From Clostridium mediterraneense (GTDB lineage Bacteria > Bacillota > Clostridia > Clostridiales > Clostridiaceae): 55,741 nt of DNA. Below the pieces are notes generated by a model that was not told the DNA's origin, did no database searches, and worked only from the letters and a program-made list of their open reading frames with translations. Made by a program: the position numbers and the translations under genes. Of the stretch, positions 35,698 through 49,020 are shown piece by piece (position 1 is the stretch's first letter; every line of letters begins with the position of its first letter). The stretch is from NCBI RefSeq assembly GCF_900091705.1, contig NZ_LT594785.1, forward strand, positions 1,859,280 to 1,915,020, read 5' to 3'.

Positions 35698-35735
35698 AAA
35701 AAAGAGTTACCTAAGTTTTTAGGTAACTCTTTTTT
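35698..35735. terminator. Bidirectional terminator between the helicase and the heme/nitrogenase-like operon
   Basis: A perfect 17-bp stem (35698-35714 with 35719-35735) with A and T runs on both sides. It marks the 3' end of the seven-gene operon on the minus strand. Confidence 0.9.
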
Positions 35736-35737
35736 TA

Positions 35738-36199
35738 TTATTGATGTTGTTTTTCTATTACAACTTGAGTAGTTTGCCACTCACCATCTTTAAGTTCAAC
35801 ATCATAAGCTTTTCCAAAGCCTTTAACAAGTCTTCCTTTACCTACATTTATCTCAAATAGATTAAAGTCTAAACCTCTTAATAAATCCATTATAGTTTTT
35901 CCTTGAATTTCACTAAACTTACTCATAATTTCTTCTTTATCTTCTATCATCTTAGCCTCAGCATCAAATGATATTCTTGATCTTGCAAATGTTACATCAA
36001 CATTACTCTCATCTTCAATAACCATTATACTTACATTAGAATTATTTGATATATTATCGTAATGCTCTGCTACTTTACTTATATAAATATAGAACTTATT
36101 ATCCATAAAAACATATGGTGCATAACTTATTCTGGGATTTTTTTCACTATCTAAAGAACTTATTATTAAAGTCTTTTGCTTATTTAATATACTTTGCAT
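35738..36199 (-). CDS. HugZ/HutZ-like heme-utilisation protein (PNPOx fold)
   Basis: 153 residues with a split-barrel flavin/heme-binding fold. The order of motifs matches HugZ/HutZ: LIISSLDSEKNPRISYAPYV, FYIYISKVAEHYDNISNNSN, VSIMVIEDESNV-TFARSRISFDAEA, then the C-terminal FNLFEINVGKGRLVKGFGKAY. HugZ and HutZ bind heme and support its breakdown for iron. Heme oxygenation needs O2, so in an anaerobe this protein may bind, store or hand over heme. It is the last gene of the operon, 40 bases after the NifK-like gene. It resembles general pyridoxamine-phosphate-oxidase-fold proteins too, but the VKGFGKAY tail favours HugZ. Confidence 0.78.
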   Translation of the reverse strand: MQSILNKQKTLIISSLDSEKNPRISYAPYVFMDNKFYIYISKVAEHYDNISNNSNVSIMVIEDESNVDVTFARSRISFDAEAKMIEDKEEIMSKFSEIQGKTIMDLLRGLDFNLFEINVGKGRLVKGFGKAYDVELKDGEWQTTQVVIEKQHQ

Positions 36200-36239
36200 T
36201 ATTATTTCCCCCTATTTTTTTCACTTTTAATTTTATTGA

Positions 36240-37442
36240 TTACGCTGATAATATCTTTTCTAATAAATATAAACATCCCCTAAATCCTACAAATGGTGTA
36301 TAAGGATATATATTTACTTTATCAATATTAGGGTTACTTATTTGAAGTTCCATAGAACTTTCATGTTTCATATCTATACTTACACCATCAGCTAAAAGCA
36401 TAAATAATTTATTATCTCTTAAAAATTGTTCTCTCTCCATCTCTGAAGAATTTACAATAATATCATCTAATTTTTCTTTTACACCATGTAAAACTTCTGC
36501 TCTACTAACATTTAAACCAAGCTCACTTATAAAATCTTTCATAGAAATAACAGTATCTCTATCACCAAATATAGCAACATCTTTATTTTCTAAGCCTCTT
36601 ATTTTAAATCTAAGTCTAAAAAGATATTTCTTTATAAGTTTTTCCTCTTCTTCTACTCTTTGTTTATTAATCTCATATTTCATAAGTTCTGAAATTTCAT
36701 TAATCCAAGCAAGAGTTTGGGTTAAACCTACAGGCTTTTTATATACATAAGGAATATTGTATTTTTTCTCCATAAACTTAGCTACTTTTAATCCTTCTTT
36801 TCTAAGTACGATATTTAAAGAAGCCTCTGAAGCTTTTTCTATTTCATCTACTGAAGTATAAGCAGTAAATATAGTATTTAAATCTTTATTAAATACTTCT
36901 TTCATCATTCTTTTTACTTCTACACTATCCTGCATAAAGTTATAACAATCAGCTGTACTTCCAATAATGTTATAAGTATCTTTCTTTTCACTTGGAGCTT
37001 TAATCATATTTTTAGCTATTAATCCTAAGGCCTCTTCAACTCCAGCATTGTAATCATCCTTTAATCCACCTGTTGTTATTGGTATAAGCTTTGCATTTAC
37101 TTCATTTGCAAGTTCCATACAAACACTCTCAATATCTGCACCAATTATAGATGAAACTGATGATGCCATTATAAATATATATTTAGGTTTTACATTTACA
37201 TCAACTTCTCTAATACAATTTTCTATTCTTTTATATGAACCAAAAGTTATATCACTTTGATCCATATGAGTTGAATATAAAGTACATAAATCATCAGCAT
37301 TTAAAGTTCCTATTCCTTCAATTGCATAGTGAGTAGTTCCAGCTGGTCCAAATTCTATAATACAAACATCTTTTATAGTACATAATGTCCATATAATTCC
37401 CATTCTATCTGAAGCAACAGGATAATATTTATATAAATTCAT
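36240..37442 (-). CDS. Nitrogenase-like component 1 subunit lacking P-cluster cysteines (NifK/BchB-like)
   Basis: 400 residues, COG2710-like. The N-terminus YPVASDRMGIIWTLCTIKDV, followed by CIIEFGPAGTTHYAI, lines up with the NifD/K start, but the Cys positions are altered. The GP.GC Cys is Thr36 (GPAGTTHY) and the TTC.PE.IGDD position reads MASSVSSIIGADIES. No canonical cluster Cys remains; Asp12 is one possible non-Cys ligand by loose analogy with the Asp ligand of BchB. Other blocks are kept (IPITTGGLKDDYNAGVEEAL; NIIGSTADC; FTAYTSVDEIEKAS). It starts 2 bases after the NifD-like stop with AAGGAGG. It would pair with that subunit and accept electrons from the NifH-like protein. Confidence 0.82.
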   Translation of the reverse strand: MNLYKYYPVASDRMGIIWTLCTIKDVCIIEFGPAGTTHYAIEGIGTLNADDLCTLYSTHMDQSDITFGSYKRIENCIREVDVNVKPKYIFIMASSVSSIIGADIESVCMELANEVNAKLIPITTGGLKDDYNAGVEEALGLIAKNMIKAPSEKKDTYNIIGSTADCYNFMQDSVEVKRMMKEVFNKDLNTIFTAYTSVDEIEKASEASLNIVLRKEGLKVAKFMEKKYNIPYVYKKPVGLTQTLAWINEISELMKYEINKQRVEEEEKLIKKYLFRLRFKIRGLENKDVAIFGDRDTVISMKDFISELGLNVSRAEVLHGVKEKLDDIIVNSSEMEREQFLRDNKLFMLLADGVSIDMKHESSMELQISNPNIDKVNIYPYTPFVGFRGCLYLLEKILSA

Positions 37443-37444
37443 TA

Positions 37445-38701
37445 CTAATCCTCCTTAAAACTTTCTATTAAAACTTTCATAATTCCTATAGGAAGTTCAT
37501 ATCCTATTTTTTGTGCATTAGCATCTAAAGTTAATTGCTTTAAGCCTTTTTGTTTTAATAGCATAGGATTTTCATGACCTATATATATTTCTGAATTTAA
37601 CTTATCATATAAATGTCTAAGTGGTGCAATATTAGCTATTCTTGTTATATAAGGATTAAATCCTTTTTCTAAAATTTTATCCTTCCACTTAATATCAACA
37701 TCATATAATTCTCTAACTTGTATTAACTCTGGCTCAAGTCCAAGTTCAACTAAAAACTCAGCTGTTTCAAATGCCATCATAGGAGTATTACCATATATAA
37801 ATTTCTTTTTATCAAGTAATTTCTTTGCTTCTACAAATAGACAATCATACTCATCTCTTATTTGTACTAATTTATCTTGTAATTTTATTTCTAAAATTTC
37901 TTCTATCTTTCTATAGCACTCATCTATTGTTTCTTTATTCATATGCTTGTCAAAGAATATATAAGGAACATTAAATCTTTTTTCCATTTTTTCTGCTAAA
38001 TCTAAAGCTATCATATCTGTAACTATGTTGAGTTTTGCTTTAGTAGCATTTCTAATTTCATCAATTTCACATTTAGAAGGAATTATAGTATTTATTTCTA
38101 TCCCTTCTTCTTTAAGAAGTTTGATAAGTTCAGTATTTTCTACTCCCTCTTGTCTATGTCCTAAAATATTTATTCCATTATTATTTTCTTTCTTCTTCAT
38201 TAAATTAATTAATGCTGATATTGATCTTGTCATTCCTGGAATATGGCTATTACACTTATAATGTTCAGTCTTTACAACTAAAACTGGTATATCTAAATCA
38301 TCTGAAATTTCATCAACTATTCCTTCATAGTCTTCACCTATAAGTTCTGGAACACAAGTAGTAACTACCATTACTCCAGTAATATCATTATTTTTAGCTA
38401 TATACTCAACAGCTTCTTTAACTTTTCTATCTGCTCCAAATACAACATCATTTTCTTTTAAAACTAAAGAAAATACTTTATCATTTCCATTATGTCTGTG
38501 ATTTGAAAATACCTTTGTATAATAAGTACATTCGCTTGTCCCAACAACTAATAAGGCTAATCCCTTAATATATGAAGCTGTAAGAGCTACTCCAAATAAA
38601 GGACAATGTGTTCCAGGGAAAATAGCATAACTTAATCCCTTAATATCTTTATCTTCTTTTATCTTATCTAATCTATTTAAAACATCTAAATTATAATTCA
38701 C
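37445..38701 (-). CDS. Nitrogenase-like component 1 subunit with three cluster cysteines (NifD/BchN-like)
   Basis: 418 residues from the GTG at 38701 (AAAGGTG eight bases upstream), overlapping the ATPase stop by 11 bases. Three Cys occur at the positions used for the P-cluster or the NB-cluster: Cys33 in IFPGTHCPLFG, Cys58 in VGTSECTYY and Cys116 in TTCVPELIGEDYEG. The latter half has the alternating Rossmann-like blocks of the family (INILGHRQEGVENTELIKLL; KFIYGNTPMMAFETAEFLVE). It lacks the FeMo-co ligands (no Cys275/His442 context seen). The 3-plus-0 Cys split with its partner is closer to dark-operative protochlorophyllide reductase than to NifDK. Confidence 0.85.
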   Translation of the reverse strand: MNYNLDVLNRLDKIKEDKDIKGLSYAIFPGTHCPLFGVALTASYIKGLALLVVGTSECTYYTKVFSNHRHNGNDKVFSLVLKENDVVFGADRKVKEAVEYIAKNNDITGVMVVTTCVPELIGEDYEGIVDEISDDLDIPVLVVKTEHYKCNSHIPGMTRSISALINLMKKKENNNGINILGHRQEGVENTELIKLLKEEGIEINTIIPSKCEIDEIRNATKAKLNIVTDMIALDLAEKMEKRFNVPYIFFDKHMNKETIDECYRKIEEILEIKLQDKLVQIRDEYDCLFVEAKKLLDKKKFIYGNTPMMAFETAEFLVELGLEPELIQVRELYDVDIKWKDKILEKGFNPYITRIANIAPLRHLYDKLNSEIYIGHENPMLLKQKGLKQLTLDANAQKIGYELPIGIMKVLIESFKED

Positions 38702-39503
38702 AGTTCTTACACCTTTCCTCACTTTTATAACATACTTCTAATGGATATATTTGAGGTTTATTATTTATAGGCTCTTTATTTATGCAGCATTTAACATTAT
38801 AAACACTATGAATAATTTCTTTATTTATAACATCCTCAGGTTTTCCATCTGCAACAATATTTCCGTCTTTCATAATAATTACTCTATGACTATATCTAGC
38901 TGCTTGATTTAAATCATGTAAAACCATAAGAATAGTCATATTAAATTTTTCATTTATACTCTTAACAAGTTCCATTAATTCTAACTGATGACACATATCT
39001 AAATATGTAGTTGGCTCATCTAAAAGTAATATATTAGTTTTTTGAGCAAGAGCCATTGAAAGCCATACTCTTTGTCTTTCTCCACCTGATAGATTTGAAA
39101 CAGCTCTATCCTCATATTTTTTAACTCCAGTATTCTCTAAGGCCCAATCTACTATTTCTAAATCTTCTTTATTTTTAGATTCATACCACTTCTTATGTGG
39201 TATTCTTCCATAATAAACAAGATCTTTCACACTTATATCATTTGGTGATGAATTATGTTGTGAAAGTATAGCTAATGATTTAGCTATTTCATTATCTTTC
39301 ATTAAATCCATAGATTTATCCATAATAAATATTTCACCACACTCTTTTTTTAATAATCTAGACAAAGATTTTAAAAGAGTTGATTTTCCTGAACCATTTG
39401 GCCCTATTATAGAAACTATTTCACCTTTTTTAATATGAAGAGATAAATCATTTATTATCTTCTTATTTTCATATCCAACATTAATGTTCATTGCCTTTAA
39501 CAT
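38691..39503 (-). CDS. ABC transporter ATPase of the FecE/BtuD/HmuV type
   Basis: 270 residues. Walker A GPNGSGKST near 39, signature NLSGGERQRVWLSMALAQKT, Walker B ILLLDEPTTYLD, switch His in VLHDLNQAARY. The family imports heme, siderophores or cobalamin with a FecCD permease. An unusual Cys-rich tail follows the ATPase core (VKCCINKEP, CYKSEERCKNCEL), giving five Cys in the last 40 residues. These could bind iron, zinc or a redox signal. It is coupled to both neighbours. Confidence 0.85.
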   Translation of the reverse strand: MLKAMNINVGYENKKIINDLSLHIKKGEIVSIIGPNGSGKSTLLKSLSRLLKKECGEIFIMDKSMDLMKDNEIAKSLAILSQHNSSPNDISVKDLVYYGRIPHKKWYESKNKEDLEIVDWALENTGVKKYEDRAVSNLSGGERQRVWLSMALAQKTNILLLDEPTTYLDMCHQLELMELVKSINEKFNMTILMVLHDLNQAARYSHRVIIMKDGNIVADGKPEDVINKEIIHSVYNVKCCINKEPINNKPQIYPLEVCYKSEERCKNCEL

Positions 39504-40496
39504 CTATTTTGCACCTCTTTTTCTAAGTAAGTATAAGAAGAATGGTCCTCCAACTATAGACATTATTACTCCTACTGGTATTTCTAATGAACCAAGTATA
39601 GTTCTAGCTAAAGTATCAGCTACTAAAAGCACTATTGCTCCAAGTATCATTGAAAATGGAATTGAATATTTATGATCAGAACCAATAATCATTCTACTTA
39701 TATGTGGAACAATAAGCCCAACAAAACTTATAATACCAACAATTGCTGTTGAAGTACCTGCAAGAAATACTGCTACTACTGATAATAATACTCTTGTTTT
39801 ATTTACATTAAATCCAAGGCTAGTTGCAGAACTATCACCAAGACTTAATACATTTGCACCTCTTGCACATAATAATGATAAAGATAATCCAATTACAGAA
39901 TAAAAAGCTACAATTTTAACATCATCCCAGGTTTTTGAAGCAAGGCTTCCATTAAGCCATAATAAAGCTCCTTGAATTTTATCGCTATATAAAGTTGTAA
40001 GTAATGCTATTATTCCACCTAAAATAGCATTTACAGCAACTCCAGCTAAAACTACCCTAATTGGATCTAGCCCATTTTTCCAAGCCATAAGATAAACTAC
40101 AATACAAGCAATTGCTCCTCCAACAAAAGCTACTAAAGGAAGAATTCCTACATATTTAGGTAATAATAAAAGAATTATTATAGCCATAACACTAGCTCCA
40201 GAAGATACACCTGTTATTCCTGGATCAGCTAAAGGGTTTTTCATAACAGCTTGGAGTAAAAGTCCTGCTATTGCAAGACTTGCTCCAACTAAGACTGCTA
40301 ATACATTTCTAGGAAGTCTCATCTCATATAAAATAGTTGATGCCATTTTATTCTCACCAGATAAACCTGCTATCATTTCACTAAAAGATAATCTAACACT
40401 TCCTATTGTTCCAAATAAAAATATTAAAGCTATTAATATCACAAAGCTTGTACATATAATTACAAGCTTTTTTTTATCTAAAGATTTCTTTTTCAT
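39504..40496 (-). CDS. FecCD-family ABC permease for heme or siderophore
   Basis: 330 residues from the ATG at 40496, six bases after GGAG; the ATG at 40508 overlaps that site and the preceding stop. About ten membrane helices. Family motifs are MRLPRNVLAVLVGASLAIAG (TM2 start), QAVMKNPLADPGITGVSSGA, VGIISFVGLIVPHISRMIIG and ARTILGSLEIPVGVIMSIVG. It forms the dimeric channel of the importer with the lipoprotein at 40498 and the ATPase at 38691. Confidence 0.88.
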   Translation of the reverse strand: MKKKSLDKKKLVIICTSFVILIALIFLFGTIGSVRLSFSEMIAGLSGENKMASTILYEMRLPRNVLAVLVGASLAIAGLLLQAVMKNPLADPGITGVSSGASVMAIIILLLLPKYVGILPLVAFVGGAIACIVVYLMAWKNGLDPIRVVLAGVAVNAILGGIIALLTTLYSDKIQGALLWLNGSLASKTWDDVKIVAFYSVIGLSLSLLCARGANVLSLGDSSATSLGFNVNKTRVLLSVVAVFLAGTSTAIVGIISFVGLIVPHISRMIIGSDHKYSIPFSMILGAIVLLVADTLARTILGSLEIPVGVIMSIVGGPFFLYLLRKRGAK

Positions 40497-40497
40497 A

Positions 40498-41385
40498 CTA
40501 TTCTCCATAAACTATATTCCCTAGTTGTTTAATAGCTTCTGTTACTTTAAGATTTGCAGATACTCCAAAAATAGTAGGATCTAAATCAACTACGTTTCCG
40601 TTTTTAGTTGCATCTAAAGATTTCCAAGCTGGGTCTTTACTAAAAGCATCATCAAAAGCTTTTTTACTTGTTTCTAGATCTCCATGAGATAATCTTAAAA
40701 TATAATCTGGATTCATCTTTAAGATTTGCTCCATACTAAAGTTTAAATATGCTGAATCTACACTTTCCACATCATCTGTAACATTCTTAACACCAATAGT
40801 ATCAAGCAAATCTCCAACATAAGATTTATCAGTTGCTAACATAAAACTTTCTGATGTTCCAAAAAGAACTGCAACACTAGGAGTTTTACCTGTTTTCTCT
40901 TTAATTTTTAAAACATCATCAACAGAAGTTTGAAGCTCATCAGCTAATTTATTTGCTTCTTCCTCTTTTTCTGTTTCTACTCCAAGTTTCTTTATACTTT
41001 CTTTAAAATTTGAGAAACTTGTTGTATCAAAATAGAATGTATTTATTCCATATTTATTTGATTGCTCTTCAAATTTATCTTTAAAATTACTATCTATAAC
41101 TAAAAGATCTGGAGTTAAAGATGTTATAACCTCAAAATTAGGCTCAAAAGATTGTCCTACAGCTTTTACATCTTTATATCTTTCAGGTAATGTAGATTTT
41201 GTAGTAGGAATACCTACTAAGTCTAAATCTAGCTTATCCATAACTTGAGTAGCCGCAACAGTAGATGAAACTATTTTTAATTCTTTTTTAGGTTCTTGTA
41301 CTACTTTTTCTTCTGCTTGTCCCCCGCAAGAAACTAAAAGTAAACCTGCTCCTACTAATACACTTAACACTAATTTTTTTAACAT
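40498..41385 (-). CDS. IsdE-like heme-binding lipoprotein of the importer
   Basis: 295 residues. Lipobox LVSC (Cys20), then a PF01497-type two-lobe fold. It resembles S. aureus IsdE along its length as I recall that sequence: IVSSTVAATQVMDKLDLDLV then GIPTTKSTLPERY, and ILRLSHGDLETSKKAFDDAF, DLDPTIFGVSANLKVTEAI. The heme ligand His229 of IsdE corresponds to His234 here (LRLSHGDL). The second ligand Met78 falls on Phe80 or next to it (GQSFEPNFE), so it appears to be lost. This makes a heme or modified tetrapyrrole substrate more likely than a siderophore. It lies between the NifH-like gene and the permease. Confidence 0.82.
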   Translation of the reverse strand: MLKKLVLSVLVGAGLLLVSCGGQAEEKVVQEPKKELKIVSSTVAATQVMDKLDLDLVGIPTTKSTLPERYKDVKAVGQSFEPNFEVITSLTPDLLVIDSNFKDKFEEQSNKYGINTFYFDTTSFSNFKESIKKLGVETEKEEEANKLADELQTSVDDVLKIKEKTGKTPSVAVLFGTSESFMLATDKSYVGDLLDTIGVKNVTDDVESVDSAYLNFSMEQILKMNPDYILRLSHGDLETSKKAFDDAFSKDPAWKSLDATKNGNVVDLDPTIFGVSANLKVTEAIKQLGNIVYGE

Positions 41386-41396
41386 AATTCTCTCCC

Positions 41397-42149
41397 CTAA
41401 TTTTCACTATTTAATATTTTTTTAGCTAAATCAAAATATGTACCAGCCATATCAGACTTTTCATCATATTCTATAACTGTCTTTCCATCATTTTCAGAAG
41501 TTTGAACAGTCTTATCTCTAGGTATATATTTAATAATACTTGTATCTATTTCCTCACAAAGCTTCTCAACAAGCTCTTTTTCATTTTCAACATTTTTAGC
41601 ATTTAATATAAGTCCCTTTAAAGTTGCATAACCTTTATTTCTAAATTGTTTTACAGCAGTTGAAATATTACTTGCTGCATACATTGACATCATTTCTCCT
41701 GATGTTACAACAAAAACTTCTTCTGCATATCCATTTCTTATTGGCATTGAAAAGCCACCACAAACAACATCTCCTAAAACATCATAAATAACAATATCTG
41801 GTTTATATACTTCAAAAGCATTTAATTCTTCAAGTTTTTCAAATGCTGCAATTATACCTCTTCCAGCACATCCAACTCCTGGAGTTGGTCCACCTGCCTC
41901 AACACATAAAACTCCATTAAAACCTTCAAAAACTATATCACTAAGTTCTAAGTCATCTCCTTTTTCTTTCATAGCATTTAAAACTGTAGGTATAAATTTA
42001 CCTTTCATTAAATTTTTAGTAGAATCTGCCTTTGGATCACAACCAACTTGCATAACTTTATATCCTAAAACTGATAATGCAGCTGATAAATTTGAAACTG
42101 TTGTAGATTTTCCTATTCCACCTTTTCCGTATATAGCAATTTTTTTCAT
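41397..42149 (-). CDS. NifH/BchL-like iron-sulfur ATPase of the nitrogenase-like system
   Basis: 250 residues. P-loop GKGGIGKST (8-16), switch I region GCDPKADST (36-44), and the two [4Fe-4S] Cys of the homodimer at Cys94 (GVGCAGRGI) and Cys130 ([13 protein letters not shown]). The Arg of GCAGRG that is ADP-ribosylated in NifH is kept. It is shorter than NifH (about 275-290), lacking the C-terminal tail. It would pass single electrons, with ATP hydrolysis, to the NifD/K-like pair. It is the first gene of the operon, directly behind the Fur box; the component 1 genes lie four genes downstream. No nifB, nifE, nifN or nifV occurs in the window. Confidence 0.9.
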
Positions 42150-42182
42150 TTATTTTGACACCCTTCCATAATTTATAAATTT

Positions 42183-42211
42183 ATTATATAATGAAAATGA
42201 TTATCATTATT
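42183..42211. promoter_or_regulatory. Fur box overlapping divergent promoters
   Basis: Positions 42193-42211 match the 19-base Fur consensus at 16 of 19 positions (core AATGATTATCATTAT). A minus-strand TATAAT (complement of 42183-42188) follows directly for the NifH-like operon. A plus-strand TATACT at 42230-42235 lies downstream for the AraC gene. Iron-replete Fur would cover the -35 region of both. Confidence 0.88.
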
Positions 42212-42274: not shown

Positions 42275-43030
42275 ATGAATCTAATAAAAAACACTCAATT
42301 TGCTACGATACTAGAAAATTTTTATTTAATAACCAAATCACCTATTTTAATGTTAGATACAAAAGATAATCTAATCATATATAAAGGAGGTCATGATAAT
42401 ATTTCTTTGCCTGATTGTTATATCAAAGAAATCTCTAATAATATAAAACTTAATAATGATATAAAAAATTCTAAATCTATAAAATTTATAAATCTAACTA
42501 ATAAATTAAAGTTACCTGTTATCTTTATTTCAAACAATAAATTAATTAATCATTACTTTGTATTCTTTCCTTTTAGACATGAAATTAAAGAATTAGATAT
42601 AGACTCCTGTTCAAATGCTACTTTTATACCTGAATACTGTTTTTCATATTTGGGTGAATTATTAAAAATAATTATTAATGATAGTTTAATTAATGATAAA
42701 GAAGCAAACTTTATGAGCCTAAACACAAGAAAGGCAATAGAACATATTCATAAAAATTTTGATACTAATATCAGTACTGACTTTATGGCTGATCAATTAA
42801 ATATTAATAAATGTTATTTTTGTAATCTCTTTAAAAAAGAGACAGGATTAACATTTACTAATTTTTTAAAGAAATTTAGAGTTGAAAAAAGTAAAGAGTT
42901 ATTAAAAAACTCTAATTTATCAATATTAGATGTAGCAATTTCGGTAGGATTTAATAGTCAAAATTACTATTCTATGAGTTTTAAAAAATTAAATAACATT
43001 ACACCTCTAGAATATAGAAATCTACTATAA
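42275..43030 (+). CDS. AraC-family regulator divergent from the heme/nitrogenase-like operon
   Basis: 251 residues. The C-terminal 100 residues are an AraC double helix-turn-helix (IHKNFDTNISTDFMADQLNI, CYFCNLFKKETGLTFTNFLK, LLKNSNLSILDVAISVGFNS, ITPLEYRNLL). The N-terminal 150 residues resemble a sensory domain (SPILMLDTKDNLIIYKGGHD) with a few Cys/His, family uncertain. GGGGG precedes the ATG. Sharing the Fur box with the operon, it is probably made under iron starvation. It would then activate the operon on binding a ligand such as heme; the ligand is inferred, not shown. Confidence 0.85.
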   Translation: MNLIKNTQFATILENFYLITKSPILMLDTKDNLIIYKGGHDNISLPDCYIKEISNNIKLNNDIKNSKSIKFINLTNKLKLPVIFISNNKLINHYFVFFPFRHEIKELDIDSCSNATFIPEYCFSYLGELLKIIINDSLINDKEANFMSLNTRKAIEHIHKNFDTNISTDFMADQLNINKCYFCNLFKKETGLTFTNFLKKFRVEKSKELLKNSNLSILDVAISVGFNSQNYYSMSFKKLNNITPLEYRNLL

Positions 43031-43107
43031 ACAATGTAAATATGAATAAAGCACCTTGAAATGATTATACTAAAATTAGATATTAATTATTGAAAGGTGT
43101 TTTACAT

Positions 43108-44034
43108 ATGAAAAAATTTATTAAAATTAGTTTATTAATATTTTCGATTATATTTATTTCTTTTAATCCGATTATTAGATATGTTAATGCACAACCAACT
43201 GCAACTCCTAGTCCTGCACCAGCACCTGCTCCAGCTCCTAATCAAGCACAAACTCCACCACCTTTAAGTCTTGTAAAGGAAGCTGATAACGTACTTGTGC
43301 TTCCAAAAAGATTTCGAAGGAGTACTGATGAAATAAATACTTCTCAAAATCCAAATCTAAATTTAAATGGATTAGATAAGTTAAATATATCTGGTAGTGC
43401 TCAATTTTCTGAAAATGAACTTTTAGTAGTAAAACAAGCTCTCGGAAATAAGATGCCTATTTACGTTATTGATTTAAGAGAAGAATCTCACGGATTTATA
43501 AATGGAATAGCTGTTAGTTGGAAAAATGCACATAATAATGCTAATAAAGGTCTTAGTTTTTTAGAAATTATAGATGCTGAAAATAAGTTATTAAATTCTG
43601 TGCAACTTAATAAACCTCTACAATTTTCTAATTCTAAAGAACAAATAGTTCCTGAAAGGGTACAAAATGAACTTGACTTAACTAAAGCTCACTCATTATT
43701 TTATGACCGTATTCCTGTAACTGATGGAGAATTACCAAGTGCTGAAAGAGTTAATTATTTTGTTGGCTTTGTTAAAAATCTACCTAAAGATACTTGGGTT
43801 CATTTCCACTGTAAAGAAGGTATAGGTAGAACTACTACTTTTATGATAATGTATGATATTATGAGAAATTGTAGTAATGTTAGTCTAAATGATATTATCT
43901 CTAGACAAGTATTACTTGCAGGACTTAATGAAAAAGAAACCCTTAGTTTTACTACTGGAAAAAGGTATGAATTCTTAAATAAATTCTATGCAGATTACAA
44001 CGCTTCAGCTTGTACTTTTTCTATAGCAAGCTAA
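43108..44034 (+). CDS. Secreted PTP-like inositol polyphosphatase (phytase)
   Basis: 308 residues from the ATG at 43108 (AAAGGTG eight bases upstream; in-frame TTG at 43090 rejected). Signal peptide to about residue 28 (VNA-Q), then a Pro/Ala linker (PTATPSPAPAPAPAP) and a protein-tyrosine-phosphatase-like domain. The P-loop HCKEGIGRTTTFM holds Cys235 and Arg241. The general acid is probably Asp206 in IPVTDGELPS. The segment after the P-loop (MIMYDIMRNCSNVSLNDIIS) closely resembles the Selenomonas PhyA-type phytases as I recall them. It would release phosphate from inositol phosphates outside the cell. Own gene unit with a terminator. Confidence 0.85.
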   Translation: MKKFIKISLLIFSIIFISFNPIIRYVNAQPTATPSPAPAPAPAPNQAQTPPPLSLVKEADNVLVLPKRFRRSTDEINTSQNPNLNLNGLDKLNISGSAQFSENELLVVKQALGNKMPIYVIDLREESHGFINGIAVSWKNAHNNANKGLSFLEIIDAENKLLNSVQLNKPLQFSNSKEQIVPERVQNELDLTKAHSLFYDRIPVTDGELPSAERVNYFVGFVKNLPKDTWVHFHCKEGIGRTTTFMIMYDIMRNCSNVSLNDIISRQVLLAGLNEKETLSFTTGKRYEFLNKFYADYNASACTFSIAS

Positions 44035-46251: not shown

Positions 46252-48792
46252 TTATTTTATCATTTGTTTTCTCTTTATCAATTTATATAACTTCACTAAT
46301 TCATACCACATAATAGAAGCTATTGATACAACAACTACTATAAGTAATCTACAAAAATTAAGTGGTGCTAAATTTAAGAAAGCTGAAATAGGTGTATATA
46401 GTATTAAAGCTAATCCTAAAACTGTTATAATACCTACTCCCCACATAACTGGATCTTTTTTAAGTTTCATCATTGACCTATATGCAAAATCTTTATCGGA
46501 ACTATTAACTTGTACAAGGAATATATTAGAAAGTATCAATATAGAAAGTCCCATCGAACGAGCTATATTATCTGAAACATTATTTACTTTTAGTTCTATA
46601 TAATAAACCATAAAAGCAGCAGCAAATAAAATCACACCTTGCACTATACTCTTTATTATTAATTTTGAATTTACTATACTTTCTTTAGGATTTCTTGGTT
46701 TTCTAACCATAATATCATCTTCTGCTGGTTGTCTTTCTAAAACAATAGAACAAGTAGGGTCTATTATTAATTCTAATAAAACAACATGCACAGGTAATAG
46801 AAGAAGAAATCTAGCATTTATTCCAAGAAGAGGTGCTATTAAAGAAGAAAGAGCTATTGGTAAATGTATAGTTATTGCATAACCTATTGCTTTTCTTATA
46901 TTATCATAAATTCTTCTACCATCCCTAATTGTATTAATTATAGTAGAAAAATTATCATCTAAAAGAACTAAATCAGCTGCTTCTCTTGAAACTTCTGAGC
47001 CCCTTTTTCCCATCGCAATACCAATATCAGCATATTTAAGAGCTGGTGCATCATTAACTCCATCACCTGTCATAGCAACTATTTCTCCATTTTCTTTAAG
47101 TGCTTTAACTATTCTCATTTTATGCTCTGGAATAACTCTTGAAAAAATACTTACGTCTTTAACTTTACTTTTAAGTTCTTCATCACTCATATTACTAAGA
47201 TCATCACCAGTAATTATTGACTTACTATGTGGAATTCCAACTTGTTTTGCAATTGAACTTGCTGTAATACCATTATCTCCAGTAATCATAACTACTCTTA
47301 TACCAGCCTTTAAACAATTTTTTATATCTTCTTTAATTCCTTCTCTTGGTGGATCTTGAAGTCCTATAAGTCCAAGAAACTCTAATTTACAATCATAGAT
47401 ATTACTTGGTACCTCTTCCTTACTAGCTACCATCATTTTACCTACTGCAATAACTCTATGACCATTAGAAGAAATCTTAAATATTTTTTCTTCTATCTCT
47501 TTTCTTTCAGAATCACTTAAACTACAAAGAGTTAAAATTTTCTCTGGTGAACCCTTAGCAGCTACAATAACACCTTCATCTTCTCTATTCCAAACATGTC
47601 CCATCATTTTTCTTTCAGTAGTAAAAGAATACTCTGTAACTAATTCTCCACTAAATAATTCATCCTTTGTTATATTTAATTCTTCACAATATTTAAGCAT
47701 GGCTTGTTCCATTGGGTCATAAGCATCAGTTTCACAAGCCATTCCCATTACTCTGATTAATTCTTTTATATCATAATTCAAAGCCCAAGTTTGACTAACA
47801 CTCATTTTATTCATAGTAATAGTTCCTGTTTTATCTACACATAAAACAGATACTTCTCCTAAAGTTTCAACTGATGATACCTTACGTACTACAGCTTTTT
47901 TTCTTGCTATTCTCCATGCTCCCATAGATAAAAAAACTGTTAAAATAACAAGTATCTCTTCTGGTATCATTGCCATTGCAAGAGTTATACTAGATAATAT
48001 ACTCTCTATAATTCTATCTACAAATGAAAGATATGAAAAATTTAAATAACTTATAATAAAAACTGCTACACATAGCCCTACTGCTATAATTCCACATACC
48101 TTAATTAATTTTCTTATTTGTTTTTGCATTGGAGTAGGTTTTTCAGGAGCTTCTACTACATTAGTTCCTATCTTTCCATACTCTGTTTCAGCTCCAATCT
48201 TTTCAACTAAAACAGTTGCACTTCCTTGAATAACAAGAGTTCCTGCATAGCAATAATTTCTTTTCCAATGCTCTTTATTACTTTTATCATCATAATCTCT
48301 CTTCCAAATAACCTTTGATTCACCTGTTAATGATGATTCATCAATACAAAGATCATTAAGCCTTAGAATTCTACCATCTGCTGGAACCTTTACGCCCTCA
48401 GTTATTATCATTAAATCACCAGGAAGTAAGTCATAACTTTTTATAACTGTTTCTTGTCCATCTCTTATTACAGTTATATTAGGAGCTGATAAATTTTTAA
48501 GTGCATTTAAAGTTTTATCAGTTTTCCATTCCTGAATAACATCAATACCAACCATACCAATTACAAATATTATCATTATAACAGCATCACGAGGTTCTCC
48601 AAGTATAAAGTAAATAATTGCTGCTATAGTTAAAAATAAAAACATAGGCTCCTTTAAAACTTCTAGGAGCTTTAAAAATAAATTCTCTTTTTTATCAGGA
48701 ATAAGTTTATTATCCCCATATATAAGTTTCCTCTCTAGTACTTGACTTGAATTTAGCCCTTTTAATTCCTCTATCTTTTTTTGTTCTGTCAT
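46252..48792 (-). CDS. P-type cation ATPase controlled by a NiCo riboswitch (probable Ni/Co/Fe exporter)
   Basis: 846 residues from the ATG at 48792 (TGGAGG eight bases upstream; the ATG at 48807 overlaps that site). P2-like architecture: TGES at about 156-159, DKTGT with Asp320, TGDGVNDAPALKYADIG, ten predicted helices. The M4 ion-site motif is IPEEIL (276-281) instead of the Ca2+ pump's PEGLP. The M6 region reads LLELIIDPTCSIVLERQPAE. It therefore differs from the Ca2+ pump at 788-3400. The upstream riboswitch points to Co2+, Ni2+ or Fe2+ as substrate; this is inference from regulation. No N-terminal metal-binding domain is present, unlike P1B pumps. Confidence 0.82.
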   Translation of the reverse strand: MTEQKKIEELKGLNSSQVLERKLIYGDNKLIPDKKENLFLKLLEVLKEPMFLFLTIAAIIYFILGEPRDAVIMIIFVIGMVGIDVIQEWKTDKTLNALKNLSAPNITVIRDGQETVIKSYDLLPGDLMIITEGVKVPADGRILRLNDLCIDESSLTGESKVIWKRDYDDKSNKEHWKRNYCYAGTLVIQGSATVLVEKIGAETEYGKIGTNVVEAPEKPTPMQKQIRKLIKVCGIIAVGLCVAVFIISYLNFSYLSFVDRIIESILSSITLAMAMIPEEILVILTVFLSMGAWRIARKKAVVRKVSSVETLGEVSVLCVDKTGTITMNKMSVSQTWALNYDIKELIRVMGMACETDAYDPMEQAMLKYCEELNITKDELFSGELVTEYSFTTERKMMGHVWNREDEGVIVAAKGSPEKILTLCSLSDSERKEIEEKIFKISSNGHRVIAVGKMMVASKEEVPSNIYDCKLEFLGLIGLQDPPREGIKEDIKNCLKAGIRVVMITGDNGITASSIAKQVGIPHSKSIITGDDLSNMSDEELKSKVKDVSIFSRVIPEHKMRIVKALKENGEIVAMTGDGVNDAPALKYADIGIAMGKRGSEVSREAADLVLLDDNFSTIINTIRDGRRIYDNIRKAIGYAITIHLPIALSSLIAPLLGINARFLLLLPVHVVLLELIIDPTCSIVLERQPAEDDIMVRKPRNPKESIVNSKLIIKSIVQGVILFAAAFMVYYIELKVNNVSDNIARSMGLSILILSNIFLVQVNSSDKDFAYRSMMKLKKDPVMWGVGIITVLGLALILYTPISAFLNLAPLNFCRLLIVVVVSIASIMWYELVKLYKLIKRKQMIK

Positions 48793-48810
48793 AAAGATTA
48801 CCTCCATTTT

Positions 48811-48901: not shown

Positions 48902-49020
48902 AAAAATAAAAAAAACCAGTAGAACAATTTACTGTCCCACAGGTATCATAATATCCTGCTGCCAATTAAGGCCCGGCTCCGATAAATACATGATTTATTG
49001 GCCTGCTCAGTTTGTACTGT
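48902..49020 (-). promoter_or_regulatory. NiCo (czcD) riboswitch with expression-platform terminator
   Basis: On the minus strand the conserved blocks appear in order: ACTGAGCAGGC, GGAGCCGGGC, GGCAGCAGG and CCTGTGGGACAGT, forming a four-way junction. P1 is ACTG/CAGT, P2 is a hairpin with ATAAAT/ATTTAT, P3 is GCC/GGC, P4 is CAGG/CCTG. Downstream, CAGTA/TACTG (48917-48934) and eight T form a terminator that would compete with the last arm. In this class Ni2+, Co2+ and reportedly Fe2+ binding turns the gene on. It precedes the P-type ATPase by 110 bases. Confidence 0.9.

Follow-up and report, generated by a model that had tools for sequence, protein, structure and literature searches.

A 55,741-nucleotide stretch of the Clostridium mediterraneense genome (assembly GCF_900091705.1, contig NZ_LT594785.1, positions 1,859,280 to 1,915,020; hereafter the window, in whose numbering its features are given) carries a seven-gene operon at 35738-42149 on the minus strand, in which nitrogenase-like NifH, NifD and NifK relatives are joined to a heme-type importer and a HugZ-like protein. 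We propose that this is an iron-starvation operon that takes iron from imported heme by an O2-independent, ATP-driven reduction, with a probability of roughly 0.6. The link of the operon to heme is strong, and the heme import step, as predicted from the proteins, is well supported; that heme is also the substrate of the enzyme, that a particular type of cluster is present, that the ring is reduced and that iron is released would follow by analogy with related enzymes. A wider proposition, on which we would give even odds, is that heme catabolism is the task of one branch of the nitrogenase superfamily, with ATP-driven electrons from the NifH-like protein dearomatizing or opening heme in gut and rumen Clostridia, and with a flavodoxin of the FldH/HmuF type or else a HugZ-like protein serving as heme chaperone and product reductase.

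Organization of the operon

The sequence-only reading of this DNA had described seven packed minus-strand genes behind a Fur box, and all of the open reading frames (ORFs), their coordinates and, by Pfam, their identities were borne out. From the promoter-proximal end, the genes encode a NifH-like ATP-dependent reductase (41397-42149, 250 residues; PF00142 Fer4_NifH, 332 bits), an IsdE-like binding lipoprotein (40498-41385, 295 residues; lipobox Cys 20; Peripla_BP_2, 140 bits), a FecCD-type permease (39504-40508, 334 residues; PF01032, 314 bits), the ATPase of an ATP-binding cassette (ABC) importer (38691-39503, 270 residues; ABC_tran, 113 bits), a NifD-like subunit (37445-38722, 425 residues; PF00148 Oxidored_nitro, 203 bits), a NifK-like subunit (36240-37442, 400 residues; PF00148, 241 bits), and a HugZ/HutZ-like split-barrel protein (35738-36199, 153 residues; PNPOx_N, 49 bits). 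Spacing at successive junctions is 11, -11, 0, -32, 2, and 40 nucleotides; the earlier statement that most of the genes overlap was thus incorrect, as only two of the six junctions do so (by 11 and 32 nucleotides). Judged by alignment, the true start of the NifD-like protein may lie a few codons inside the annotated ORF. Among NCBIfam models, the ABC ATPase scored 299.5 bits with FecE (cut-off 375) and 253.9 bits with the heme ABC ATPase model PRK13548 (cut-off 261). All of the operon proteins stayed below the curated cut-offs of the nitrogenase, DPOR, COR, CfbCD, IsdE and HugZ models, and for this reason none is filed as a member of those families.

Relatives of the operon

Two short peptide patterns were used to scan 84,980 species genomes, giving 45 confirmed loci; all counts below cover loci found in this way, together with the window and six earlier non-duplicate loci, for a total of 52 distinct loci. 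L029-L032, which repeat genomes already included, were dropped from the counts, and genes lost at contig ends were counted as absent. Gene order is mostly conserved across the 52 loci, the usual arrangement being a divergent AraC-type regulator, NifH, binding protein, FecCD permease, ATPase, NifD, and NifK; HugZ or a flavodoxin is frequently present as well.

A tree of the D- and K-type subunits was built from 35 NifD-like and 34 NifK-like proteins, with the other loci assigned by identity and gene order. Two clades, A (17 loci, including the window) and B (30 loci), fell outside the BchN/B/Y/Z and NifD/K/E branches, with clade C (L035-L038 and L091) as a further relative; five loci belong to clade C or elsewhere. 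Support for clade B was 0.997 and 0.98 in the two halves of the tree, between which L034 shifts. Clade A takes in Clostridium gallinarum, Sarcina ventriculi, [Eubacterium] tenue, Paraclostridium benzoelyticum, Tissierella, Hathewaya massiliensis, Alkaliphilus transvaalensis, and others, and clade B is made up chiefly of Lachnospiraceae, Oscillospiraceae, and other Clostridia of gut and rumen. Binding protein, permease, and ATPase occur together in 16 of the 17 clade A loci; among the 30 clade B loci, several of whose contigs end early, 22 showed a binding protein. Closer to the window, the NifD-like protein was found in two of seven genomes of the genus (E 1e-30), and NifD-like matches at E 1e-20, a set that takes in true nif proteins, were obtained in 25 of 206 genomes of the family.

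Plasmids and viruses were also searched. Matches to the NifD-like protein were found in 197 plasmid records, with nif genes among the matches listed and a Sporomusa protein as the best; a search with the Sporomusa protein returned itself alone. Viral contigs, scanned twice, gave no relatives. Copies of the operon at L080 and L064 come from bins labelled NPL-UPA2 and Spirochaetaceae, respectively, and reflect either horizontal transfer or mis-binned contigs.

Binding proteins and surface proteins of heme type

The window lipoprotein found its best PDB matches in 5joq and 2q8p, and its His 234 aligns with His229 of IsdE, which we take, together with Met78, to be the heme ligands of that protein. 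Nine of the 16 clade A binding proteins were tested against NCBIfam, and for every one of them IsdE (TIGR03659) was the top model (window, L048, L050, L053, L054, L055, L057, L058, and L080; 191 to 358 bits); the Hathewaya protein (L053) was alone among these nine in passing the cut-off, at 357.7 bits. In the alignment of 15 clade A binding proteins, from which that of L054, more than 9 kb away, was left out, the His229 column was kept in all 15 and Met78 in 12. Scores were weaker in clade B, where IsdE was nonetheless the top model for the 11 proteins tested from 10 loci. Seven binding domains outside clade A have the two residues swapped, with His at the Met78 column and Met at the His229 column. 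IsdE did not come first for L036 and L091, the clade C loci with a linked transporter, or for two L045 controls. Since the control L041 itself has IsdE as its top model at 40 bits, weak IsdE matches by themselves mean little.

Four clade B binding proteins are unusually long, at 620-637 residues, and apparently two-domain (L062 6346-8259, L064 6253-8115, L069 5286-7172, and L072 6219-8099); in L062, L069, and L072 it is the second domain that carries the swapped His and Met.

In three of the 17 clade A loci (L053, L054, and L055), NEAT genes stand beside the operon. The clearest case is Hathewaya L053 (same genome as L031), where the operon extends an Isd-type locus in the order large NEAT protein, small LPXTG NEAT protein, binding protein, permease, ATPase, sortase, NifH, NifD, and NifK; the large protein combines NEAT domains with a Shr-like hemoglobin-interacting domain and leucine-rich repeats. 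No NEAT match was found in the window's genome at E 1e-6. Across the family, NEAT occurred in 4 of 6 genomes with the clade A or B operon and in 28 of 200 others (p 0.006), a co-occurrence that is confounded by kinship and was not used as support.

Putative heme-binding helper proteins

A flavodoxin is encoded in 25 of 47 clade A and B loci (7 of 17 in A and 18 of 30 in B), never together with HugZ. Two of these flavodoxins were searched against the PDB, and each gave one match at E 0.001, namely 8g64, the heme-bound FldH of Fusobacterium nucleatum (PMC10404700). HmuF and FldH are reported to bring heme to the radical S-adenosylmethionine (SAM) enzyme HmuW and then to reduce the HmuW product (PMC10404700). 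All 24 full-length operon flavodoxins, the 17 of clade B among them, retain the heme ligand His134; the 25th copy is cut by a contig end. Among unlinked PF12641 copies in the family genomes the residue was present in 5 of 22, a difference from the operon copies (Fisher p 1.5e-8) that is to be taken as indicative because the sequences are related; the other controls had Asp (8), Glu (1), or a gap (8) at this column, and two of the controls, L104 and L115, are partial. The window's genome gave no PF12641 match at E 1e-15.

One His134 control, in genome G176 (L096 264-2795), is flanked on one side by an ABC ATPase gene and on the other by a radical-SAM gene with ChuW/HutW as its best family (240 of 400 bits), and this is probably an anaerobic heme degradation locus. 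The same type of helper would thus accompany two core enzymes, radical-SAM or NifHDK-like. The neighbours of three other His134 controls, catalase-like (L109) and flavorubredoxin-like (L113 and L114), are not heme-uptake genes; the presence of His134 thus does not prove that a locus serves heme. G176 also holds a clade C NifHDK-like set. In Clostridium cuniculi (L032 11158-11751, same genome as L073), the S component of an energy-coupling factor (ECF) riboflavin transporter is encoded right after the NifK-like gene, a fitting neighbour given the flavin demand of the operon flavodoxin.

In the window the candidate helper is the HugZ-like protein. It missed the cut-offs of both relevant models (TIGR04109, 131 of 240 bits; TIGR04110, 123 of 225 bits) and matched HutZ (3tgv) at E 1.4e-22. 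Five of the 17 clade A loci have HugZ; they fall in one subclade, of which a Sarcina member lacks it. In all five proteins one His corresponds to His46 of the window protein and another lies among the last three residues (His 152 in the window). The latter could be equivalent to the axial heme ligand known from HugZ. Consistent linkage to non-heme transporters without HugZ, the outcome named earlier as refuting the heme reading, is not the clade A pattern, despite the limited spread of HugZ itself.

Probable iron control

Upstream of the NifH-like gene, 43 bases ahead of its start, is a Fur-like box (42193-42211, minus strand) with 2 mismatches to a 19-bp consensus. Three reported Fur hits overlap at this one place, against 0.16 expected by chance. 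The site contains the 15 bases TGATAATCATTTTCA, which also lie within the Fur box reported for the cht heme locus of C. perfringens (PMC5026354). When the scan was extended to 16 of the 17 clade A loci and 22 of the 30 clade B loci, Fur-like boxes with at most 4 mismatches in 19 were found upstream of the operon in 11 of the 16 clade A regions; the L050 site overlaps the start codon region. In clade A 10 of the 17 loci, and in clade B 21 of the 30, have an AraC-type gene close to the operon. The operon looks iron-controlled, and the earlier proposal of heme import under iron starvation gains from this distribution of boxes in clade A, from the IsdE-type His, from the NEAT and Shr genes, and from the FldH-type flavodoxins.

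The nitrogenase-like enzyme

The NifH-like protein has a P-loop from residue 8, and the iron-sulfur Cys ascribed to it were located as Cys 94 and Cys 130, within the ligand motifs. It scored best with CfbC (355 bits, cut-off 402), followed by NifH (352 of 394); BchL (213 of 345) and BchX (199 of 331) were likewise below cut-off. The two PF00148 subunits were further from known enzymes, with at most 92 bits for NifD and NifK models (cut-offs at least 427), 115 of 490 bits at best for BchB, and 37.6 and 35.4 bits for CfbD (cut-off 268); the operon proteins fall below the curated cut-offs of all BchL, N, B, X, Y, and Z models.

The three cluster Cys described for the NifD-like protein were confirmed, Cys 40, 65, and 123 lining up with cluster Cys of BchN, BchY, and NifE. 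They are conserved in 35, 34, and 35 of 35 NifD-like proteins, respectively. The column of the Cys275 ligand of the iron-molybdenum cofactor (FeMo-cofactor) holds Cys in 1 of the 35 and Asp, Asn, Ser, His, or Glu in 34, with Asp in the window. The NifK-like subunit lacks Cys at the three cluster positions, having Ser, Thr, and Ser instead in the window; Thr36 is kept in at least 90% of 39 NifK-like proteins, and clade C has His here. Positions that are invariant in clades A and B and differ in the reference enzymes compared include His39, His154, His383, and Glu384 of the NifD-like subunit and Arg13, His59, and Asp352 of the NifK-like subunit. His160 of the NifD-like and His38 of the NifK-like subunit are likewise invariant within clades A and B.

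The reported lack of nifB also held, as no match was found at E 1e-30 in the window's genome (3.08 Mb, five contigs) or in five other clade A and B genomes of the family. Canonical nitrogen fixation was rejected, given the missing FeMo-cofactor Cys, the absence of a nifB match, and the presence of only two PF00148 genes in the genome, both in this operon. Membership in DPOR, COR, or CfbCD was rejected on the cut-offs, the tree position, and the missing Asp ligand.

Other enzymes for heme breakdown

No PF01126 heme oxygenase was found in the window's genome at E 1e-6. In the genus, heme oxygenase is present in four of seven genomes and the NifD-like protein in two, and no genome has both; this is kept as a genus observation, replacement of heme oxygenase as a statistical claim being unsupported over the family. 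The radical-SAM model HutW (TIGR04107, cut-off 400) gave no score above cut-off in any of the 206 family genomes. At E 1e-30 it matched all 206, with a best score of 238 bits, and these matches are read as HemW/HemN relatives, G176 perhaps excepted.

Proposed mechanism and alternative explanations

In the mechanism that we propose, heme would be carried into the cell by the IsdE-like lipoprotein, the FecCD permease, and the ATPase. Ferredoxin or flavodoxin of the cell would re-reduce the NifH-like protein, which would hydrolyse ATP and pass low-potential electrons to a NifD/K-like complex bearing an iron-sulfur cluster with three Cys ligands. This complex would carry out a multi-electron reduction of the tetrapyrrole ring, as DPOR, COR, and CfbCD do, a step suggested by this precedent and by the cluster Cys, and with the loss of ring aromaticity Fe2+ would be released. 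A heme-binding accessory protein, which would be the HugZ-like protein in the window and a flavodoxin resembling FldH and HmuF in many related loci, may deliver the heme, further reduce or remove the product, or do both, a role modelled on HmuF beside the radical-SAM enzyme HmuW.

Several observations weigh against this mechanism or narrow its reach. The window lipoprotein misses the IsdE cut-off (269 bits of 298.65) and has Phe 80 at the position of IsdE Met78, as do the C. gallinarum and Sarcina proteins. Ten single-domain clade B binding proteins tested score only 59-106 bits with IsdE, and no His is found at the His229 column in 30 other sequences or domains, clade B having none. Of the 22 clade B upstream regions scanned, only 2 have a Fur-like box, and both clade B genomes of the family hold a heme oxygenase. 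Over the family, neither the lack of heme oxygenase in clade A genomes (0 of 4 versus 36 of 202, p 1.0) nor that of nifB in clade A and B genomes (0 of 6 versus 68 of 200, p 0.18) is significant. In the enzyme itself, Thr36 of the NifK-like subunit occupies the position of the BchB Asp ligand, so a DPOR-like cluster is not established; Ser is found where BchB has Cys. One locus (L059) has the three nitrogenase-like genes without binding protein or permease, clade A is supported at 0.91 in the D half of the tree but at 0.22 in the K half, and the related loci are not independent samples. The clade C loci L036 and L091 sit among siderophore-type genes: L036 has a FecB/FepB-like binding protein, and L091, on the Sporomusa termitida plasmid pSPTER (4170-12301), places its NifHDK-like set in a siderophore-type uptake cluster with a binding protein, two FecCD-type permeases, an ATPase, an esterase (best NCBIfam model enterochelin esterase, weak at 32 of 222 bits), and flanking TonB receptors, one TonB-dependent receptor being annotated as a siderophore receptor. 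No importer was found near L035, L037, or L038.

On account of this clade C linkage, a general low-potential iron reductase is a serious rival, in which the NifHDK-like complex would reduce the ferric complex brought in by the importer and leave its organic ligand intact; it also fits that all three clades, A, B, and C, have linked importers of the FecCD type. We consider it unlikely as an account of this operon, because clades A and B differ from C at positions otherwise invariant, such as His383-Glu384 of the NifD-like subunit, and because reduction by itself leaves the iron in protoporphyrin. Ferric heme should, moreover, need no ATP-driven electrons, a value of -115 mV being reported for HmuF-bound heme (PMC10404700). 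A more plausible departure, although still a doubtful one, is that clade B handles another iron or tetrapyrrole complex of gut and rumen and that heme is the business of clade A only, which is compatible with heme breakdown as the function in the window. The divergent clade B binding proteins without His229, the two heme oxygenase genomes, and the scarcity of Fur-like boxes would all be explained, whereas the full retention of His134 in clade B flavodoxins and the seven binding domains with swapped His and Met speak for heme there as well.

Imported heme might instead be remodelled into a modified tetrapyrrole cofactor for use by the cell. The characterised nitrogenase-like tetrapyrrole reductases, DPOR, COR, and CfbCD, are biosynthetic (PMC7242693), yet the Fur-like boxes, the iron-acquisition neighbours, and helpers with a known part in heme breakdown point elsewhere, and the baits used recovered no further conserved neighbour beyond importer, regulator, flavodoxin, and HugZ; we hold this improbable, more so than general iron reduction. 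The least credible alternative, for which we see very little chance, couples metal transport to the assembly of a metal cofactor. It was raised as a possibility in 2012 for transporter-linked members (PMC3464626), and against it stand the lack of nifB in clade A and B genomes of the family, the near-complete loss of the FeMo-cofactor Cys, and the company of IsdE, NEAT, and FldH, which points to heme.

Comparison with known systems

Like the operon described here, DPOR (BchL-BchN-BchB) and COR (BchX-BchY-BchZ) have a three-component NifH/D/K architecture with a D-type subunit that provides three Cys, and their known substrates are tetrapyrroles. They differ in lying on separate tree branches, in scores far under the cut-offs, in the Asp ligand and a Cys of BchB that are replaced here, and in genomic setting, since the present operon sits with an importer and not with bacteriochlorophyll genes. 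CfbCD, a Ni-sirohydrochlorin a,c-diamide reductase, has in CfbC the closest model to the NifH-like protein, but CfbD/NflD is described as a single-gene subunit (PMC3464626), where two subunits are found here.

The operon probably belongs to the NifEN-like family noted in clostridia by Dos Santos et al. in 2012 (CLM_0808/0809 and Clos_0313/0314), judged from the anatomy described for it. In the available text of that paper, these genes follow NifH and an ABC ATPase, one subunit has three cluster Cys and the other has none, and FeMo-cofactor ligands are lacking, all as here; that text makes no link to heme and suggests that metal transport may be coupled to the assembly of a cofactor (PMC3464626). 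The sequence-only reading knew of no characterised system with this gene set. This agrees with the literature searched, in which no listed title or abstract opening joined nitrogenase-like enzymes with heme import or breakdown, which is weak evidence of absence; it needs correction in that clostridial genes of this nitrogenase-like kind, adjacent to ABC transporters, were already on record in 2012. The novelty accordingly lies in the functional reading and its evidence and not in the existence of the genes.

Among known systems for heme iron, HmuS is a CobN-like chelatase, unlike the nitrogenase-like reductase here. It is reported as a heme dechelatase with which gut commensals strip iron from heme (PMC12583661). 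ChuW, HutW, and HmuW, class C radical-SAM enzymes that work with HutZ or HmuF, are described as sharing with the present system an iron-regulated heme-uptake operon, a heme-binding helper, and an O2-independent core enzyme; they differ in that the core enzyme here is nitrogenase-like. A 2025 review names ChuW/HutW-type and ChuS-type proteins as anaerobic heme degraders (PMC12670364). Isd and Cht systems with a heme oxygenase share the IsdE-type binding protein and the FecCD permease, as well as NEAT proteins and a sortase in Hathewaya, whose locus is comparable to the C. perfringens cht locus, where hemO, encoding a heme oxygenase, is reported five ORFs upstream of chtD (PMC5026354). They differ in that NifHDK-like genes stand in the operon here and that the family's four clade A genomes gave no PF01126 match.

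Neighbouring features and other loci

Downstream of the operon, between its end and a converging helicase gene, is a terminator-like hairpin with a 17-pair stem and a T tail (35698-35735; no strand assigned, on the plus-strand list); two terminator-like sites were found in the region where 1.3 would be expected. On the other side, a divergent AraC-type regulator (42275-43030, plus strand; PF12833) is followed immediately by a PTP-like phytase gene (43090-44034, plus strand; PF14566, 89 bits). Further along, a NiCo riboswitch (48930-49020, minus strand; Rfam RF02683, 71 bits) is found a short way upstream of a P-type cation-transporting ATPase gene (46252-48807, minus strand), which likely encodes a nickel/cobalt-controlled transporter.

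Other nitrogenase-like pairs on separate tree branches were seen beside FecCD-type importer genes at L041 (3294-11559), where a nifB-like match below cut-off adjoins NifH, and at L045 (9045-15128). At L040 and L042, two NifH-D-K-like sets lie in tandem, spaced by ORFs of about 785, 352, and 334 residues.

Significance

In our judgement, how anaerobes without heme oxygenase or radical-SAM degraders release iron from heme is largely open. The operon offers a three-component candidate whose product should be readable by spectroscopy and mass spectrometry. If the proposal is true, a further O2-independent route to heme iron would stand beside the radical-SAM and chelatase enzymes, and a function would be provided for NifH/D/K homologs of gut and rumen that can be mistaken for nitrogen-fixation genes. 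Nitrogenase-like enzymes would then act in catabolism and iron nutrition, beyond N2 fixation, pigment and cofactor synthesis, and sulfur salvage, and a demonstration at the bench would give the nitrogenase family a new job.

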